A stretch of 64,000 nt of DNA from Lactifluus volemus (taxonomy: Eukaryota; Basidiomycota; Agaricomycetes; Russulales; Russulaceae), in assembly GCA_022376515.1 (NCBI GenBank), contig WTXI01000098.1:1-64000 (forward strand), in the 5' to 3' direction. Below, one piece after another: positions 4,301 to 56,848 of the stretch. Under the pieces are notes generated by a model that worked only from the letters and a program-made list of their open reading frames with translations, had not been told where the DNA came from and ran no database searches. The translations under genes and the position numbers were made by a program. Each line of letters starts with the position of its first letter. The stretch's first letter is position 1.

Positions 4301-5386
4301 GTTTCTGTTTTGGCTTGAAGTGCTTAGCATCAAGTGCAAAGTGAGAATTGCTCTACCAGCATTGTCTTCTCTGACGACATGGCTATGGTCTGGCAAGAGT
4401 AAGGTATGTACACCCCACACTTGAATATGAATGATTGCATCATGATAAATTTACAACAGCCGTCTGAAAATGCGGAAAATTTGTTGGGAATTGTGAATGA
4501 TGGGTCGGCATTTGTGCGGTACTTTGGGATGCCCATTGCAAGGAGCGCACCGCATATCTATATTTCTGCCATTCGCTCCGTCCTCTTCCCACATCGTCAA
4601 GCATTACCTTCATCTATTCCCTCGTACGTTGTGCTTGGAGCGCGGGCAGTTGTCTCATTGGCCTGCGTTGGAAATGACGATTCAGGCACATGAAGAATCA
4701 ATCGACTCTGTTGCGTTCTCACCAGATGGGCACCGCATTGCCTCAGGCTCACGCGATTTCACGATTCGGGTGTGGGATTCCACAACCGGGGAGCTTGTAG
4801 CAGGCCCGCTTACTGGACACCCTGGCGATATCGATTCGGTTGCATTCTCTCCTGGCGGGCAGCACATCGCCTCAGGCTCGAGGGATGGTACGATTCGGGT
4901 GTGGGATGCTGCAACAGGAGAGATCTTCGCAGGCCCGTTTACTCGTCACACCGGTGAGGTCTATTCTGTGGCATACTCGCCGGATGGGGAGCGCATCGCC
5001 TCGGCCTCGCAAGATGGCACCATTTGTGTATGGGATGTTGCAAAAGGAGCCGTCGTGGCAGGGCCGTTTACTGGACACACTAGATGGGTCCGTTGTGTTG
5101 CATTCTCGCCGGACGGGAAGCGCATCGTCTCGGCCTCGGGAGATCGCACGATTCGGGTGTGGGATGCCGCCACAGGAGAGGTTGTTGCGGGCCCGTTCAC
5201 TAGACACACGGACGAAGTCCACGTGGTTTCGTTCTCACCAAACGGGCAGGTCATCGCCTCGGCCTCGACAGATTACACGATTCACGTGTGGGACACTGCA
5301 ACTGGAGAAGTCATAGTAGGACCATTTATTGGACACACCGGCCAGGTCTACTCTGTTGCTTTCTCACCAGATGGGCAGCTCATTGT

Positions 5387-5771
5387 TGTTGAGATGCGAC
5401 CCGGATCCCGCGGATCTAGCGGACCGGAAACCGCGGAATGGAGTAAATATGATTAATGACAATTTATGTACGGGACTAGCTCCCTGGACACTTAGATACA
5501 CGATTATGGGTAGAATAAAGAATGCTATTATTCTGGACATTTACATCTGCTCTGGACAGTATAAAAGAACGTAGTTTTCGATGCGTTCACTTCAGTCTTC
5601 TTGCCTACGACTGAAGTGAGTATAGCTTATGTCATTTCTTACCATATTTGGCTTACCTGTGTCTTAGTGCTATCTAATCTCACAGGTACTTATGATCTAT
5701 GAATATAGTCTTCTTGCCTACGACTGAACGCTATCTAATCTCACAGGATTATCTAAGCTATTGTAACGACA
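5387..5771 (+). repeat. 5' LTR of Copia-1
   Basis: TATAAAAG at 5,560-5,567 predicts a start near 5,590-5,595. Downstream lies an exon-intron-exon pattern: 5,594-5,615; intron 5,616-5,667 with GTGAGT donor, CTTAC branch-like site and CTTAG acceptor; 5,668-5,686. An intron-less copy of both exons follows at 5,707-5,747. See findings. Confidence 0.95.
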
Positions 5772-5785
5772 GGTTATGGGCCCTG
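5772..5785 (+). other. Primer-binding site of Copia-1 (initiator tRNA-Met half)
   Basis: GGTTATGGGCCCTG directly follows the 5' LTR. It is complementary to the anticodon arm of initiator tRNA-Met (GGGCCCAUAACC form), not to a tRNA 3' end. Drosophila copia is known to prime with a half molecule of this tRNA. The same 14 bases follow the 5' LTR of the second copia element at 57,359-57,372. Confidence 0.7.
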
Positions 5786-6446
5786 CGCCCCTGTGAATTC
5801 CAAAGAAGATCAAATTACAACAGTCTCGCACTTGCACTACTCTACGCGCTTACGGTTCTCCCTAAGGCGAGCTTCTGTTTACTTCGCTTGGTAATCCCAC
5901 TTCTCCCGGTCCTTGGAGCCGGGGGATCAGCGTAGGCTGGATCCCTTTCCGGGATTTCCCGCGAGCGTTGTGCGAGAGCGCGGCGACGCTGAAGCACGTG
6001 CGAGTTTTCTCTCGGCCCGGTTTGCGCGGTTACTTAATTAATTTAGCCCGGGGAAACGGACGCACGTTAGCCGGTCAGGCGCGGCGCGGACGAGCCGGAT
6101 GCGGCCCTACTGCCATGTTAGGAAACCGGGTGGGAGGCCCCGGGGACTATTTGCCTACTGAACGGTTGGCCGATGACTTCCTTGCAGAGCACGGTTCTTG
6201 GGTCTAGAACAAGGCGGGGGTAATCACTCCCCTGAGCGCTTGGGCTCGTCACAACTGCGGTACGCTAAGATAGGATAGATTACTAGATCACACCGCGCGC
6301 AAAGTCCGAGAGACTGGATCTGATAAGATTCAGGGTGCACAGCTGGATACGTCAGGGATCCAATCAGATCTTCGATCTCTGGGTCTGACTGCTCCTCATT
6401 CCCAGGTTATCAAAAAATCATCGCTTTATCTTATCAATAGCAAATT
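5786..6446 (+). other. Copia-1 untranslated leader
   Basis: About 660 bp between primer-binding site and Gag start. GC-rich first half, no convincing gene. It should hold packaging and dimerisation signals, but none can be identified by eye. Confidence 0.5.
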
Positions 6447-9400
6447 ATGCCTGCAATCACATTCCCTCCTGCAGCCGGGATCGAGATCCTCGACAGATCT
6501 AACTGGGCTGTCTGGTCATCGCGCATGCAAGCACTTCTGCGGCTTAACGGACTTAAAGATCATGTGACCGTAGATCAATCTACCCCCACTCCAGCCTGGA
6601 CGGAAACTGACGGGATGATAACGGGCGTCTTTGAGATGTATTGTCAAAAGGACGTCTGGAACTCAGTCTCTGATGATACAAAGTTCAGAACTGCTAAAGC
6701 TAAGTGGGTGGAACTTCAACGGATCTACGGAGGCGTCGGATCTATGTCCGCGTTCAATAGTTGGGTTGCCCTGACCGGGACATCCCTCGAGGAATCAAAA
6801 CCGATGATGCCTCAATTGCAGAAACTTAATGACGCGTGCATCACCCTACGTAACAACAATATGAATATCTCCGATCTTCAATTATGTTTTATCTTGATCA
6901 AGGCACTTCCCGAGTCCTATTCGGCAGTCGCGTCGACCATTTTGGCCACCGGAGCGCCCAAGGATCTTTCCCCGACCACGGTCCAGGAACGCATTCTAAA
7001 TGAGGAAGGTCGACGGTCCGGAACTTCCGCTTCACTCAACAAGATCGCCCCAATCAAACGCAATGATAAAACTAATATTACATGTTTCTACTGTAATAAA
7101 AAGGGGCACAAAAGTAACGAGTGTAAGAAGAAGAAGAAGGATCTGGCTGCCAAAGATAAAAAGGATAAGGAGCAGGGGAGCGCGGCGCAGACGTCTAGCG
7201 GAAGCAAGGCGGTCAACGCGCACATAGTACCTACTGCTACGATCACCGAGATCTCCGATGACAGTAATGATATGCGCGTTTCCCTTTACGCTGCTGTGAG
7301 ATCGCGATGGATGGTTGATTCCGGCGCCACGCATCATATCAGCCCTTATCGATCCGACTTCACTTCGTGGAAGCCGGCCCGGGGACAAGTCAGTCTTGGT
7401 GGGCACGCCGAAATCGATCAGATCGGAACCGGAGATATTGTTGTCACACCCCTCGGAGGGAACAAAAACATTCAATTGACCCTGCATGATGTGATGCACG
7501 TCCCTGACGCTCGCGCGCGATTCTTCTCGGTCGGCACGCTGATGCGGAAAGGTGGCAAGATCACATTTGATAACGCAGGATTTGAGATCTACGTTAAAGA
7601 TCGGAAGATCGCACGGGGTTACATGGAAGATAATCTATTCTACTTTGATACTTCCAACCTGGCGATCAATGTGCACAGGAGTGCAGCCCAATCAATCAAC
7701 ATCTGGCATCAAAGGATGGGGCATATGTCGTATAACGCGCTTATGCGATATAGTGAATCAGTCAAAGGGATCGCGCTAACCGCACCGATCGATCAAGATC
7801 GGGATCAATCTCCCTGCCCCGGATGTGCGCTCGGGAAGCAATCTCGCTTACCCTTTACGGCTTCGCCTATGCGATCGACCGCTAGAATGCAGCTGATCCA
7901 TAGTGATCTAGCCGGTCCGATGCAAAAGCAATCAATTCAAGGCGCGCTGTACATGGGATCATTTATCGATGATTGTTCCCGACATGCCGTAGTGTATTTC
8001 CTCAAAAGTAAAGATCAGATCGTAGATGCCTTCAAGGACTTCCTGGTGCGCGCAGAAAAGCAAACATCAGATAAGATCCTGGCAATACACAGCGATCGCG
8101 GAGGGGAATACATGGGTGGCCCGATGCAGCTTATCTTATCGGAGCATGGCATCGAGCATCGCACTACAATGCCTTACTCGCCTCAACAGAACGGTGTAGC
8201 CGAGCGATGGAATCGCACGATCTTAGATAAGGCGCGCGCGATGTTCCACAGCGCCGGCTTATCTCTCGGGTTCTGGGAGCTTGCAGTAGATGCTGCAGTT
8301 CACACATACAATAGAACTCCTACACGCGTTCTTGGTTGGTGCACTCCGCACGAACTCTGGAACGGTGGGCACGTTCCAGATGTCTCATACTTCCGGATCT
8401 TCGGATGTCGCGCTTACGCGCACGTCCCGGAGGAACTCCGGAAGAAGCTAGATCCTCAGGCGATCCCGACGATCTTTGTCGGATATGAGCCCGGATCTAA
8501 GGGGTACCGTTTATGGAATAGGAGCAAACGCTCGGTCATGCTGTCCCGCGATGTGACGTTTGATGAGCGCGAGTTCCCTGCTAAGGAGAGCGTTGAGCCG
8601 TCCGCTCCTCTGGTGCAGCCCCTCGCAATAGATTGGCCTGTGACTCTTCATTTTCCCTCGAGTGAACCCGGAGGCCCCACGCCTCCGCAAACACCCGCTA
8701 ACACCTCCGTGTATGCGACCCCGCCATCCCGCCCTCCGGCACTGCAGCTCACTCTGGATGTTGCGCCGCCTCGCCCGCCTTTACCTCGCCCGCTCTTGCC
8801 TCTGCGCAGACCGCCTCCGGCCCCACCTGTTCCGGGGCCTTCGGGCGTTGTCCCAGAGCGTCCACCTTCTCCCAGGCGTCTGCGTGCTAACCCGAAGCAG
8901 AATCCGCAGTATCTTACTGCAACTGCTAGCTCGCGCGCCAGGAGGCCCGCTCAGTTATCTCACGCGGTTCTACTTAGTGCTGCCGAGGTACGCGACCCCT
9001 TATCTTATCGGGAAGCGATGGCGTCGGACCGAGCCGAGGAGTGGCAACGTGCCTGCGCATATGAAATTGACGCGCTAGCCAAGAATGGCACTTGGGTTCT
9101 CGTGCCTTTACCGCCGGGCCGGAAGACCGTTAAATCTAAATGGGTCTTCAAGCACAAAGCAGATGGACGCTTTCGTGCTCGGCTGGTGGCCAAGGGGTTC
9201 ACTCAAATACAGGGAATTGACTATGATGAAACCTTCTCTCCAGTAGCACGTTTCGAGTCTTTGAGACTGCTGCTAGCGTTGGCCGCGCTAGAGGATTGGG
9301 AGATCCACCAAATGGACGTCAAATCGGCGTTCCTGAACGGCTTACTGGATGAGGAGATTTACATGGAGCAGCCGGAAGGTTTCATTGATCAGGCCCAATC

Positions 9401-10526
9401 AGATAAGGTTTGCCTCCTCAAAAAGGCATTGTACGGACTCAAGCAAGCCTCGCGCGCATGGAATTTGCAATTCCATGGAGTTCTCATAGGGCTCGGCTTT
9501 ACGCGCACGCACTCGGATGCGGGGATCTATCATCGCCAAGATGCGGGGGGACAGCTAATCATAATCCTCTATGTCGATGATATCACGATCTTAGGCGATT
9601 CGCACGATGGGGTCAATCAGATTAAGATTACCTTATCTAGTCGCTACGAGATGACTGATCTCGGAGAGATCGACTCTTATCTCGGAGTCCGGATCACTCG
9701 GGATAGGTCAATCAAACGCCTAGAGATAGACCAATCGCGTTACATCTCGGAGATCGTCGATCGCTTCGGAATGGCTGATGCTAACCTGGCGCGCACCCCG
9801 CTTCCCGCTGGTGCAGAGACGCACCTGATCAAACACAATGGAGAGGCAACGCCTGCAGAGATAAAAGATTATCAAAAGATTATCGGCAGCCTGCTCTATG
9901 TGCAGATCGGGACTAGACCCGATATATCCTTTGCGGTATCGCACCTTGCGCAGTACGCATCAAACCCATCGCCTCAACATCTGCGCCTAGCCAAGTACAT
10001 CTTATCTTATCTAAAGGGCACTCAGGCCCTCAGGCTGCGTTACGATGGCGAGCGCGGTGATGGATTGCACGGATATTCGGATTCCAGCCTTGGTGATCAG
10101 ACTGATGATTGCCACTCAACATCTGGCTATGTTTATCTACTTGGTGGTGCAGCCATCTCATGGTCATCGCGCAAACAAAAGACAGTCGCGCAGAGCACTA
10201 CTCAGGCGGAGTACATGGCGCTCACAGATGCAGCCAATCAGGCCACGTGGTATCGGAGCTTCTTTGGCGAGATCGGATACGAGATCTCAGATCCGATTCC
10301 CTTACATGGTGATAACAAAGGCGCGATTGACCTAGCGCTGAATCCCGTGACCGGAAAAAGATCAAAACATATTCCGATAAAGCATCACGCTATCCACGAG
10401 TACATCAAAGAAGGTCAGATTGATCTGATAAGGACTTCGACCCTCGATATGCTTGCCGATGGCTTCACTAAGCCACACGCGCACGTGAAGCTGCAAGACT
10501 TCCTCACGGGACTGGGACTTATCTAA
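6447..10526 (+). CDS. Copia-1 Gag-Pol polyprotein (1,359 aa)
   Basis: Single frame encoding the whole replication machinery. Domains in order: Gag (about residues 1-205); zinc knuckle CX2CX4HX4C with C213, C216, H221, C226; aspartic protease with D291 in WMVDSGATHH; GAG-pre-integrase zinc region with MGHM and CPGC motifs; integrase with D487 (HSDLAGP), D550 (HSDRGGEY) and E586 (GVAERWNR), a DD35E spacing; a proline-rich linker; reverse transcriptase with YVDD (D1044, D1045); RNase H to the C terminus. The order integrase before reverse transcriptase defines Ty1/copia. Gag and Pol are in one frame without frameshift or stop, so the Gag excess must arise another way. All catalytic residues I looked for are present. 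The stop at 10,524-10,526 lies 32 bp before the 3' LTR. Confidence 0.96.
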   Translation: MPAITFPPAAGIEILDRSNWAVWSSRMQALLRLNGLKDHVTVDQSTPTPAWTETDGMITGVFEMYCQKDVWNSVSDDTKFRTAKAKWVELQRIYGGVGSMSAFNSWVALTGTSLEESKPMMPQLQKLNDACITLRNNNMNISDLQLCFILIKALPESYSAVASTILATGAPKDLSPTTVQERILNEEGRRSGTSASLNKIAPIKRNDKTNITCFYCNKKGHKSNECKKKKKDLAAKDKKDKEQGSAAQTSSGSKAVNAHIVPTATITEISDDSNDMRVSLYAAVRSRWMVDSGATHHISPYRSDFTSWKPARGQVSLGGHAEIDQIGTGDIVVTPLGGNKNIQLTLHDVMHVPDARARFFSVGTLMRKGGKITFDNAGFEIYVKDRKIARGYMEDNLFYFDTSNLAINVHRSAAQSINIWHQRMGHMSYNALMRYSESVKGIALTAPIDQDRDQSPCPGCALGKQSRLPFTASPMRSTARMQLIHSDLAGPMQKQSIQGALYMGSFIDDCSRHAVVYFLKSKDQIVDAFKDFLVRAEKQTSDKILAIHSDRGGEYMGGPMQLILSEHGIEHRTTMPYSPQQNGVAERWNRTILDKARAMFHSAGLSLGFWELAVDAAVHTYNRTPTRVLGWCTPHELWNGGHVPDVSYFRIFGCRAYAHVPEELRKKLDPQAIPTIFVGYEPGSKGYRLWNRSKRSVMLSRDVTFDEREFPAKESVEPSAPLVQPLAIDWPVTLHFPSSEPGGPTPPQTPANTSVYATPPSRPPALQLTLDVAPPRPPLPRPLLPLRRPPPAPPVPGPSGVVPERPPSPRRLRANPKQNPQYLTATASSRARRPAQLSHAVLLSAAEVRDPLSYREAMASDRAEEWQRACAYEIDALAKNGTWVLVPLPPGRKTVKSKWVFKHKADGRFRARLVAKGFTQIQGIDYDETFSPVARFESLRLLLALAALEDWEIHQMDVKSAFLNGLLDEEIYMEQPEGFIDQAQSDKVCLLKKALYGLKQASRAWNLQFHGVLIGLGFTRTHSDAGIYHRQDAGGQLIIILYVDDITILGDSHDGVNQIKITLSSRYEMTDLGEIDSYLGVRITRDRSIKRLEIDQSRYISEIVDRFGMADANLARTPLPAGAETHLIKHNGEATPAEIKDYQKIIGSLLYVQIGTRPDISFAVSHLAQYASNPSPQHLRLAKYILSYLKGTQALRLRYDGERGDGLHGYSDSSLGDQTDDCHSTSGYVYLLGGAAISWSSRKQKTVAQSTTQAEYMALTDAANQATWYRSFFGEIGYEISDPIPLHGDNKGAIDLALNPVTGKRSKHIPIKHHAIHEYIKEGQIDLIRTSTLDMLADGFTKPHAHVKLQDFLTGLGLI

Positions 10527-10551
10527 TCTTTGATTAGGATTGTCTTAATCA

Positions 10552-10558
10552 CGGGGGA
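10552..10558 (+). other. Polypurine tract of Copia-1
   Basis: GGGGGA (preceded by AC) directly before the 3' LTR start TGTTGAGA; the expected plus-strand primer site. Confidence 0.7.
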
Positions 10559-10943
10559 TGTTGAGACGCGACCCGGATCCCGCGGATCTAGCGGACCGGA
10601 AACCGCGGAACGGAGTAAATATGATTAATGACAATTTATGTACGGGACTAGCTCCCTGGACACTTAGATACACGATTATGGGTAGAATAAAGAATGCTAT
10701 TATTCTGGACATTTACATCTGCTCTGGACAGTATAAAAGAACGTAGTTTTCGATGCGTTCACTTCAGTCTTCTTGCCTACGACTGAAGTGAGTATAGCTT
10801 ATGTCATTTCTTACCATATTTGGCTTACCTGTGTCTTAGCGCTATCTAATCTCACAGGTACTTATGATCTATGAATATAGTCTTCTTGCCTACGACTGAA
10901 CGCTATCTAATCTCACAGGATTATCTAAGCTATTGTAACGACA
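10559..10943 (+). repeat. 3' LTR of Copia-1
   Basis: 385 bp, identical to the 5' LTR except for three sites where this copy has CG and the 5' copy has TG. Exon1-intron-exon2 at 10,766-10,858 and the spliced copy at 10,879-10,919. Confidence 0.95.
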
Positions 10944-11456
10944 ATTGTCTCGGCCTCTTTGGATCATACGATTCGTGTGTGGGATTCCGCGACAGGAAAC
11001 GTTGTAGCAGGACCGTTTATTGGACACACCGATCCGGTCAATTCTGTTGCATTCTCTCCCGACGGGCAACGGGTCACATTGGCCTCGGTCGATCGCACGG
11101 TTCGTGTGTGGGGCATCACAGCAGATGTCGTAGTCGACTCGCTTCCCGGTCACACCAATTGGGTCTATGCTGTTGCATTCTCACCGGATAGCCGGCGCGT
11201 TGCCTCAGCCTCATACGATCATACAATTTGCGTGTGGGATACCACAACAGGGCAGGTCGCGTCGGGCCCATTTACTGGACACACCGGTTGGGTTTACTCT
11301 ATTGCATTCTCACCAGATGGGCAGCGAATTGCCTCAGCCTCGGCGGATCGCACGATTTGGGTGTGGGATGCCGTAACAGGAGAGATGGTAGTAGGCCCGT
11401 TTACTGGACACACTGATGAGATCAACTGTGTTGCATTCTCGCCAGACGGGTGGCGT

Positions 11457-12394
11457 TGTCACGGTTCGCAGGGACCGTGGCTCGAAGTGAGCGTCGTTCT
11501 GGTTGGCTATTTGCTGTGGCGAGTCGGACAAGACTAGCAACACCAAATAGTCGATTCTAGCACGCGCAGGCAAGGTCCTGTGTGGAGTAGACTTGACTGT
11601 GCGAACTCTGGGTGTCTGTATCGCGCGAGACGGACTAGCGGGCCGGCGCACGCGATGGTCGGAGTTACCGTTCCCAAAGAGGATAGACGGTGGCAGATGG
11701 GTTAATGACGATGTGTAGGTTCAACCGCAACACGGGCGCGAGTGTATTTGGAATGCAAGAGATGCTCGCCTTCCAAGGACACTCGTGAGAGGTTGAACTA
11801 AGGTTCGAGGGCGGACGCGGGGTGAGAAGTGGGGACTACTTCTCACAGCGCGTTCGTATTAGGGTTCAGGCGTCTGGGGACTTGTTGCACGGAAATGGAA
11901 CAAGTTCACAGATGTCTGATCGTGGCGCGAAGTACCTGGATCAAGGTACGAAGAGGGGATTCACAAGAAGAGAGGAGGAAGATGCGATGCGAGTGTGAAC
12001 AGGAGACAATGAAGTGCGATTCTAGACGAAGCTGAAGCTGGGGCTTTAGCTCGTCTACAGGGCCCTATTTATGCGTACAGAGGGCCAGCCAATTATCCTA
12101 CAAAGGTCACAGTACAGTAGCGAAGTCAAGACTATTGACTAAGGACCTGAGTCAGTTCTGATGACTCAAGAACTGACTCAGTGCGCCTGACTCAAGATCT
12201 GAGTCAAGAACGCTGACTCAAGATTTGAGTCATGATCCCTGAGTCAAATACACATCCAAAATGGTGACGCACAGCCCCCAGAAGCGGAACAGAGGGGGGG
12301 CTGGCCAAGGAAAGGGATCCTAGGTCACAACACAAGTCGAAAATCAGACGGAAAACCGTAAGAAATGGGCCGGGCGGCCCGCATAACCGTAACA
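11457..12394 (-). mobile_element. Solo LTR, 938 bp, in NLR-A
   Basis: Ends are TGTCACGGTT and AACCGTAACA (imperfect inverted repeat), flanked by the 5-bp duplication GGCGT (11,452-11,456 and 12,395-12,399). No coding capacity or internal region, so a solo LTR produced by LTR recombination, or less likely a TRIM-like element. The minus orientation is inferred: on that strand a cluster of eight TGA(C/G)TCA sites (12,148-12,246) precedes a TATA-like CATAAATAGGG. The family (copia or gypsy) cannot be told from an LTR alone. Confidence 0.88.
12148..12246. promoter_or_regulatory. Cluster of eight TGASTCA sites in solo LTR
   Basis: Eight TGACTCA or TGAGTCA heptamers within 99 bp. This is the core bound by fungal Gcn4/CPC1-type and AP-1-type bZIP activators. 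Placed upstream of a TATA-like motif on the minus strand, it looks like the enhancer of the LTR promoter. Confidence 0.6.
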
Positions 12395-56492: not shown

Positions 56493-56848
56493 TGTTGGGA
56501 GCGCAGCCTCGCAAGGCGCAAGTCGAGCGACGCTTTGTGGTCACACGTCACATGACGCGTGACACCGATACCCTACAGACTTTCCGCGTTCCGTACCAAG
56601 TCGTTTCTATTATCTCCTTATAGTTTAACCTACCTGAAATTTGACCTCAGTTGATTTTCCCTATATAGTGTAGACACCGTGTTCACATCACCTCAGTCTT
56701 TTCATTCATAGACTGAGGTTAGTCACTCTTTTATTCCTCCATTTCCTAGTAACTTACACTCTACTTAGACTTAGGGTTCTCACTCCAATAGGTAGAGCAA
56801 TACAGTCTTTTCATTCATAGACTGAGACTTAGGGTTCTCACTCCAATA
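56493..56848 (+). mobile_element. Solo LTR, 356 bp, with intron/spliced-copy structure
   Basis: Begins TGTTGGGAGC, ends CTCCAATA, flanked by the 5-bp duplication GGAAG (56,488-56,492; 56,849-56,853). TATATA at 56,662-56,667. Then exon1 56,694-56,717, a 51-nt GT-AG intron 56,718-56,768 and exon2 56,769-56,790, followed by an exact intron-less copy at 56,803-56,848 that ends the LTR. The end TA instead of CA is unusual. Related in design, not in sequence, to the Copia-1 LTR. Confidence 0.85.

Follow-up and report, generated by a model that had tools for sequence, protein, structure and literature searches.

Intron-like segments and their fused counterpart in the long terminal repeats of Ty1/copia elements of Lactifluus volemus suggest replication through a spliced leader

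The window element and the layout of its long terminal repeats

The stretch of DNA analysed here (64,000 nucleotides (nt), positions 1 to 64,000 of the forward strand of contig WTXI01000098.1 in assembly GCA_022376515.1 of the basidiomycete Lactifluus volemus; hereafter the window) harbors a retrotransposon in whose long terminal repeats (LTRs) an intron-like segment is followed by a second copy of its flanking segments, fused without it. The 5' LTR (5387..5771; 385 nt, beginning with TGTTG and ending with GACA) and the 3' LTR (10559..10943; 385 nt, of the same design) lie, like the parts of the LTRs and of the element given below, on the + strand, and are flanked by identical copies of an unstranded target-site duplication, ATTGT (left 5382..5386, right 10944-10948). 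The 5' LTR is adjoined by a primer-binding site, GGTTATGGGCCC (5772..5783), which we take to be of the half-transfer RNA (half-tRNA; initiator Met, anticodon arm) type. An unbroken gag-pol open reading frame of 1359 codons (6447..10526) was scanned in four pieces and matched, in order, Retrotran_gag_2 (9e-15), zf-CCHC (3.6e-4), the integrase core rve (1e-12) and RVT_2 (2e-79), with no domain match in the piece after RVT_2. By the features tested, namely a copia-type gag, CCHC and integrase order ahead of RVT_2, a TG...CA LTR pair, a 5-bp target-site duplication and the primer-binding site, the element is a Ty1/copia LTR retrotransposon; it has the domain order, the LTR and target-site structure and, presumably, the type of primer-binding site of Drosophila copia, which uses a half-tRNA primer.

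The 5' LTR contains a TATA box, TATAAAAG (5560..5567), and, 34 nt past the first base of this box, the predicted transcription start A5594, which lies within TTCAGTC; the initiator (Inr) consensus is TCA+1GTY. A5594 begins a 22-nt first leader exon (e1; 5594..5615), which is followed by the 52-nt intron-like segment I1 (5616..5667; GTGAGT...CTTAC...CTTAG, the A of CTTAC being the 13th base from the 3' end) and an 18-nt second leader exon (e2; 5668..5685) that ends in CACAG and is followed by GT. Next come a 21-nt spacer (5686..5706), reaching from a second donor-like sequence (GTACTT) to AATAT, and the fused e1e2 (5707..5746; hereafter copy 2, the interrupted version being copy 1), with a hexamer resembling a poly(A) signal, AATATA (5702-5707), that has its last base as the first base of copy 2. 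The LTR closes with U5, the start of a putative third leader exon (5747..5771). An 11-bp inverted repeat (5587-5597 and 5609-5619, spanning 5587..5619) extends across U3, the predicted start, e1 and donor 1. The same parts are present in the 3' LTR: e1 at 10766-10787, I1 at 10788-10839, e2 at 10840-10857, the spacer at 10858-10878, copy 2 at 10879-10918 and U5 at 10919-10943.

An earlier reading of this DNA (hereafter the preliminary description) had reported an intron-bearing block and its fused copy in both LTRs, with the second copy starting at the expected transcription start, and its coordinates proved right on re-reading the sequence. Its exon positions likewise stand, except for the last base (5686 and 5747): as G5686 begins the GT after copy 1 and G5747 begins U5 after copy 2, the exon end is here set at the AG one base earlier. 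The reported agreement of the two copies is confirmed, at 40/40 positions in the 3' LTR and 39/40 in the 5' LTR, where 5668 has T for C at a CpG site. Copy 1 ends AG|GT, and after the AG that closes copy 2 the letters are different, so that a GT-to-AG block encloses the spacer and copy 2; this block is the putative second intron I2 (5686..5746; 61 nt, GTACTT...CTAAT...CACAG). The LTRs differ from each other at 3 positions (5395, 5439 and 5668), each a T in the 5' LTR against the C of a CpG in the 3' LTR, which suggests a recent insertion followed by deamination of methylated CpG.

The window holds a second, more distant example of the design, a solo LTR of another copia lineage (56493..56848, with GGAAG on both sides), comprising e1 (56695-56717), I1 (56718-56768; 51 nt), e2 (56769-56791), a spacer (56792-56803) and copy 2 (from 56804). 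With the element at 5387-10943 and this solo LTR, both of the copia lineages discussed below are represented. Judged by eye, the flanks of the former element (5000-5386 and 10944-11500) are WD40-repeat-like coding sequence with VAFSPDG-type repeats, and the insertion has probably disrupted a host gene or the relic of one.

Breadth in the assembly and matching of the two copies

The searches covered one assembly (62.4 Mb in 628 contigs). A generic detector for the arrangement X-[30-250 nt, GT..AG]-Y together with contiguous XY, based on exact 10-mers, gave 0 matches in 30 simulated windows (Markov-1, 64 kb each) and 2 in the window itself, the 3' LTR of the element and the LTR at 56.7 kb; the 5' LTR was missed because of the mismatch at 5668. 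The 52-nt segment occurs 18 times in the assembly with at most 3 mismatches (backwards control 0), always within matches of an LTR-core search, which returned 40 scored matches including those of family B, where U3 is mostly different and the core the same. Pattern searches and the generic detector added more families, among them copia elements with a reverse transcriptase (RT) ~50% identical to that of the window element. For the second lineage, a hairpin-plus-donor pattern had 82 matches (backwards control 0), 43 of whose donor sites, picked to cover distinct e1 variants, were read, and a pattern of e2 end, spacer and copy 2 had 67 matches (control 0).

Of 94 donor-bearing readings found by a parser, 66 show the full design, these counts being conditional on the GT and AG that the parser demanded at the intron ends and including intact-donor copies only. 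The 66 are LTRs and should not be taken for independent insertions, since a single element often contributes both of its ends and flanks recur in a few cases. They fall into 18 exon types in two copia lineages, GAG (12 types) and GAA (6 types), with ~50% RT identity between them. The remaining 28 are truncated or interrupted, have copy 2 absent or decayed, come from the opposite strand of the inverted repeat, are chimeric (L112) or failed the AG/GT rule (L021, L137). The other LTRs with an intron-bearing block and its intronless copy that the preliminary description proposed to look for do, therefore, exist in the same genome. The contrary case that it named, in which the block would be a later insertion unrelated to splicing, is disfavored by the presence of the block in 18/18 exon types of both lineages, in families that the parser selects for bearing it.

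The assembly has 147 scored copia RT matches, and the design is not general to copia here, since an element with an RT ~48-50% identical to those of both lineages (L108) lacks it in its full LTR pair, the one such pair inspected. Pattern noise was apparent in a separate search that gave 59 matches against 5 in the backwards control, and in which the fetched loci L129 and L130 were unrelated to these LTRs. Two loci among the 82 hairpin-plus-donor matches (L127 and L128, on C293 and C368) have the hairpin-donor sequence CTCAGTCGTTTCTTCGGAAGACTGAGGTGAGT and no recognizable fused copy within the stretch fetched. In or beside four LTR copies (L028, L070, L089 and L097), insertions are marked by a short palindromic motif (A[CG]CTTGCTTGCAAGGT), which looks like the end of another mobile element.

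Across the exon types, the letters of e1 differ by family, for example TCTTGCCTAC in family A, CTTACACATC in B and TTTTACTTATC in C, and each version is found in both copies. By edit distance, copy 2 is uniquely nearest to its own copy 1 in 18/18 types, the distances being 0-4 within a type (the 4 from L124, a decayed copy) and 14.4 on average between types. In family C the 3' end of I1 and the start of e2 are shifted (CTACTAG|TATCG), and copy 2 tracks the shifted boundary with one base different. Such complete matching in the face of letters that vary between types points to concerted evolution as opposed to passive inheritance side by side, and we consider it very likely that the spliced form of copy 1 has been copied repeatedly into copy 2, that is, that copy 2 is rewritten from spliced 5' ends of RNA.

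The junction in front of copy 2 behaves differently from that in front of copy 1: the base before copy 1 is C in 66/66 LTRs, and that before copy 2 is T in 34, C in 21 and A in 11. The column of the base before copy 2 varies most in 6/8 groups of near-identical LTRs, namely A1 (n=15), B (18), H1 (5), J1 (3), J2 (3) and L (2); it is the second most variable in K2 (n=4) and invariant in A2 (n=2). The 67 second-lineage junctions, grouped by spacer body and copy 2 and recovered with a search pattern that fixed part of the flanks, end in AT (36), AC (17), ATA (6), TC (3), AA (2), ATC (2) and ATT (1), and within a subtype the variation is confined to the last 1-2 spacer bases, including one-base insertions (ATA, ATC, ATT). 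Where same-strand copies 3.6-6.2 kb apart were taken as the two ends of an element, wider pairs being left out, the junction bases agree in 15/16 second-lineage pairs and in 12/12 pairs of families A and B, which argues that the variation mostly dates from before or during replication and not from after insertion. A variable base at this position is the expected trace of the end of a strong-stop complementary DNA (cDNA), and would place the transfer point at copy 2 instead of copy 1 and the 5' end of the RNA at A5594, in agreement with the TATA and Inr spacing.

A proposed replication cycle and its alternatives

Both candidate introns have GT..AG ends, which the parser imposed. I1 is 50-62 nt long over the types, a usual length for fungal introns, and a branch-like CTNAY lies 8-35 nt from its 3' end in 17/17 types, two of the 18 having been merged in this motif count (mean in shuffled sequences 7.6); families A and H share the position of the A of the CTTAC in I1, the 13th base from the end. 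I2 has CTNAY in the same range in 15/17 types (shuffled mean 5.6), and its length is confined to 56-61 nt over 18 types (mean 58.8, standard deviation (SD) 1.6), with spacers of 11-22 nt and e2 segments of 14-27 nt that compensate each other (r = -0.93). When the parts were permuted, the SD of the length of I2 rose to 6.5 and 0/100,000 permutations were as tight; much of this constancy lies between the lineages, and within the 12 types of the GAG lineage the correlation is -0.90 (p = 0.00035). On these properties, I1 and I2 may both be spliced from the 5' leader. The hexamer whose last base opens copy 2 is AATATA in 34 of the 66 LTRs, AATACA in 20, AATAAA in 11 and ATATCA in 1, and such hexamers may act as poly(A) signals; apart from this end the spacer differs widely between lineages.

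Two other splicing schemes were rejected. The spacer as an intron of its own (23 nt, GT..TATAG) would be shorter than known fungal introns and is unneeded, and a single splice from donor 1 to the e2' of copy 2 finds no AG ahead of e2' (GACTGAA|CGC).

From the architecture, its breadth in the assembly, the concerted evolution, the hypervariable junction, the constant length of I2 and the aberrant LTRs described below, we infer the splicing, the RNA ends and the order of steps of a cycle that depends on two introns and on homology, and that we regard as the probable explanation of the design. The LTR would have the order U3 - e1 - I1 - e2 - I2 - U5, with copy 2 (e1'e2') as the 3' part of I2. Transcription would begin at e1, as the TATA box, the Inr and the junction signature indicate, and removal of I1 and I2 from the 5' leader would leave e1e2-U5 and the primer-binding site, taking the 5' poly(A) signal with it. 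The strong-stop cDNA primed by the half-tRNA would copy e1e2-U5, at times with an extra or wrong 3' base. In the 3' LTR the RNA would remain unspliced, and the AATANA just before copy 2, if used as a signal, would end it in or near copy 2, so that acceptor 2 may be missing from this end and the spliced cDNA would be offered a matching 3' end. Copy 2, the proposed landing site, would then pair with the strong-stop cDNA by homology, and extension through the spacer, e2, I1, e1 and U3 would rebuild the same LTR, with copy 2 overwritten by the spliced sequence of copy 1. Where the LTR ends with copy 2, as in the second lineage, this copy would equal the entire strong-stop cDNA from start site to primer site.

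The retention of I1 in the 3' LTR might be sought in the inverted repeat over U3, e1 and donor 1, which is conserved (one stem pair changes from T-A to C-G between lineages) and folds into a U3/e1 hairpin of -16.4 kcal/mol in the window LTR and of -12.6 to -16.9 over 17 types. Only a transcript with U3 in it could form the complete stem. As a general explanation, masking of donor 1 in the 3' LTR was rejected: in the folds, only 9/17 types show a donor less accessible in the 3' read-through than in the 5' leader, and 8/17 one less accessible than with a shuffled upstream sequence, the accessibility means being 0.18, 0.20 and 0.19. We retain it as an idea for the GAA lineage alone.

Several aberrant LTRs fit the two-intron cycle. 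Two fused junctions separated by 50-75 nt were sought in 145 fetched loci; of the 10 pairs obtained, all read by eye, 9 are formed by the I1 acceptor and copy 2 and 1 is real. The latter is the 5' LTR of an element with CGGGC on both sides (C144), which reads e1-I1-e2-sp-e1e2-sp-e1e2 (sp, spacer), its 3' LTR being normal, as if I2 had stayed in the leader; a plain tandem duplication is the alternative. In a second element (C457; GGACT on both sides), U3 and e1 of the two LTRs show 99.6% identity over 224 nt. Its 3' LTR has e1-I1-e2-spacer of one subfamily (Y) and the fused copy 2 of another (X), and its 5' LTR is an intronless, Y-type U3-e1e2 with the primer site after it. Our reading is that a strong-stop cDNA of X landed on an RNA of Y and that synthesis then proceeded through the doubly spliced leader of Y; alternatively, the Y parent may already have had unequal LTRs, or switching may have occurred inside the shared AATACAGTC. 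In a third (C335; CACCC on both sides), both LTRs are U3-e1e2, with a U3 nearly identical to that of its sister C79, and their spacing is 107 nt below that in C79, which equals I1 (51) plus I2 (56). Intronless LTRs are found at 12 loci of the first lineage, some with common flanks, and 11/13 pattern matches of the second appear to be of this kind (10 of them read), the other 2 appearing unrelated. I1 is present and copy 2 absent in, for example, L027, L029, L078, L123, L125, L135 and L141 (L123 and L135 with a common flank). At one locus (L158, C603:64100-64560), an intronless LTR core is followed after 100 nt by another of a different subfamily, from which most of U3 is missing.

Among the alternatives, the one that survives best, itself unlikely, is that I1 alone is spliced. 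The cDNA would then be e1e2-sp-e1'e2'-U5, and its landing at copy 2, whether joined or paired, would add a unit in each cycle, which RT slippage between the fused repeats would have to delete. This course would likewise yield concerted evolution, slippage between direct repeats occurs in retroviruses, and the expanded form exists once, in C144. However, it requires a deletion in nearly every cycle, yet there is 1 expanded LTR among the 145 loci and no e1e2-sp-e1e2 form lacking I1 among them, and it leaves unexplained the constant length of spacer, e1 and e2 together and the AG ends with GT after copy 1. Distinctly less probable is that splicing plays no role in replication and that recombination or template switching, acting either from one copy to the other or among the copies 2 of different elements, maintains the match. 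Members of LTR retrotransposon families do recombine, as a report on Onsen indicates (PMC5668417), the products without copy 2 or without I1 resemble those of repeat recombination, and the C457 chimera could arise by switching in AATACAGTC; but exchange between 14-27-nt blocks across a 50-62-nt intron would be expected to give deletions and not matched two-exon exchange, and hypervariable bases just before copy 2, against an invariant base before copy 1, are not predicted by it.

The preliminary description had proposed that, at first strand transfer, end-to-end joining and not homology links the unspliced 3' end of the RNA to cDNA made from a spliced 5' end. Its points that copy 2 resembles such a cDNA set down at this step, that copy 2 starts at the predicted transcription start and that the arrangement lets the intron persist through replication are supported. 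As the mechanism of every cycle, end-to-end joining is nevertheless very improbable, even though the extra or changed bases at the junction are in keeping with it. Unless I2 is removed as well, it would add one 56-61-nt unit per cycle, a form seen in 1 LTR among the 145 loci, and with I2 removed, full homology is already on offer in copy 2 of the 3' LTR; moreover, within a subtype the spacer varies only in its last bases, unlike scattered RNA 3' ends. What had been overlooked is the AG|GT end of copy 1 and the AG end of copy 2: with both blocks spliced out the cDNA is e1e2-U5, homology with copy 2 alone restores the LTR, and end-to-end joining becomes unnecessary. The earlier interpretation is thus partly supported, right in kind and amended in mechanism, and it is a fair guess that the layout originated in one end-to-end join of the kind it envisaged. 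It is scarcely credible that a spliced end was captured once, long ago, or that an intron later entered a tandem repeat, and that the layout has been passively inherited since. Spacer boundaries alike in both lineages make one origin of the layout probable, but passive inheritance predicts a divergence of the copies, against the matching found in every type despite differing exon letters; the lack of any LTR with two intronless copies and no I1 among the 145 loci and the absence of families whose copy 2 has another family's or ancestral letters also count against it.

A number of observations weigh against the two-intron, homology-based cycle. For I2, these are the donors, weak and in some types far from consensus, the 2/17 types without CTNAY in range, and the GAA lineage (6 types), in which the lengths of spacer and e2 show no compensation (r = -0.07, p = 0.25). 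The stricter CTRAY is not enriched in I1 (2/17 types; shuffled 2.6) and only weakly so in I2 (6/17; shuffled 2.6, p 0.04). Donor 1 is less accessible in the 3' read-through in 6/6 GAA types and in just 3/11 GAG types, so that the retention of I1 in the 3' LTR is not accounted for. L021, with CACAA|GT, and L137, with 8 extra nt in copy 2, failed the parser; in C454 (8193 and 12972), the sole discordant pair compared, the junction is TC in one and AC in the other of two LTRs 4.8 kb apart; the types within one lineage are not independent and come from one assembly; and the intronless LTRs and those with I1 but no copy 2 could equally stem from repeat recombination and do not prove splicing. Taking these points into account, we lean, with some reserve, toward the broader proposition that both lineages routinely replicate via an RNA with a doubly spliced leader, that the fused copy encoded in the LTR serves as a landing site rewritten in every cycle, and that I2 carries a poly(A) signal kept only at the 3' end.

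Relationship to known systems

For their replication, LTR elements are considered to depend on an unspliced genomic RNA whose two ends share an identical R. In this usual scheme R is one uninterrupted sequence, present once per LTR; judged from the DNA, the LTRs described here depart from it, as I1 separates e1 from e2 in copy 1 but not in copy 2, where the two are fused, and the 3' landing site matches the spliced and not the genomic 5' end. Foamy viruses and deltaretroviruses have a splice donor in R, where it serves spliced mRNAs. We know of no intron wholly within the LTR and of no pre-spliced copy of R in either group.

The location of the foamy virus donor within the R region of the LTR is given in PMC3185757. 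Barley BARE is, like the window element, a Ty1/copia retrotransposon with a spliced RNA species; according to the report on it (PMC3735527), its intron lies in the gag-pol region, and the authors stress that the spliced RNA must not be replicated, whereas in the elements described here spliced RNA would be the normal template. Penelope-like elements can retain introns through retrotransposition, for which PMC3846280 suggests an antisense template and no LTR-encoded landing site; they have a different class of reverse transcriptase. Spliced HIV-1 RNA can be packaged and reverse transcribed, as described in PMC1868081, but there spliced RNAs accompany an unspliced genome, and here they are proposed as the main, self-restoring route. 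In open-access PMC text, none of the titles and abstract openings among the matches listed describes an intron-bearing LTR leader together with its spliced copy, and two matches concern the gene ltrB and the vector LTR1.

If the proposed cycle is true, these elements would be a self-restoring exception to the need for unspliced RNA, with introns that survive reverse transcription because the LTR carries their spliced counterpart. The genome sequence would then be a natural record of RNA 5' ends, splice junctions and the point of strand transfer. Such a cycle would also answer two long-standing problems: how introns survive in retroelements, and how premature polyadenylation is avoided in the 5' LTR, since the splicing of I2 would remove the poly(A) signal at the 5' end of the RNA and leave it at the 3' end.
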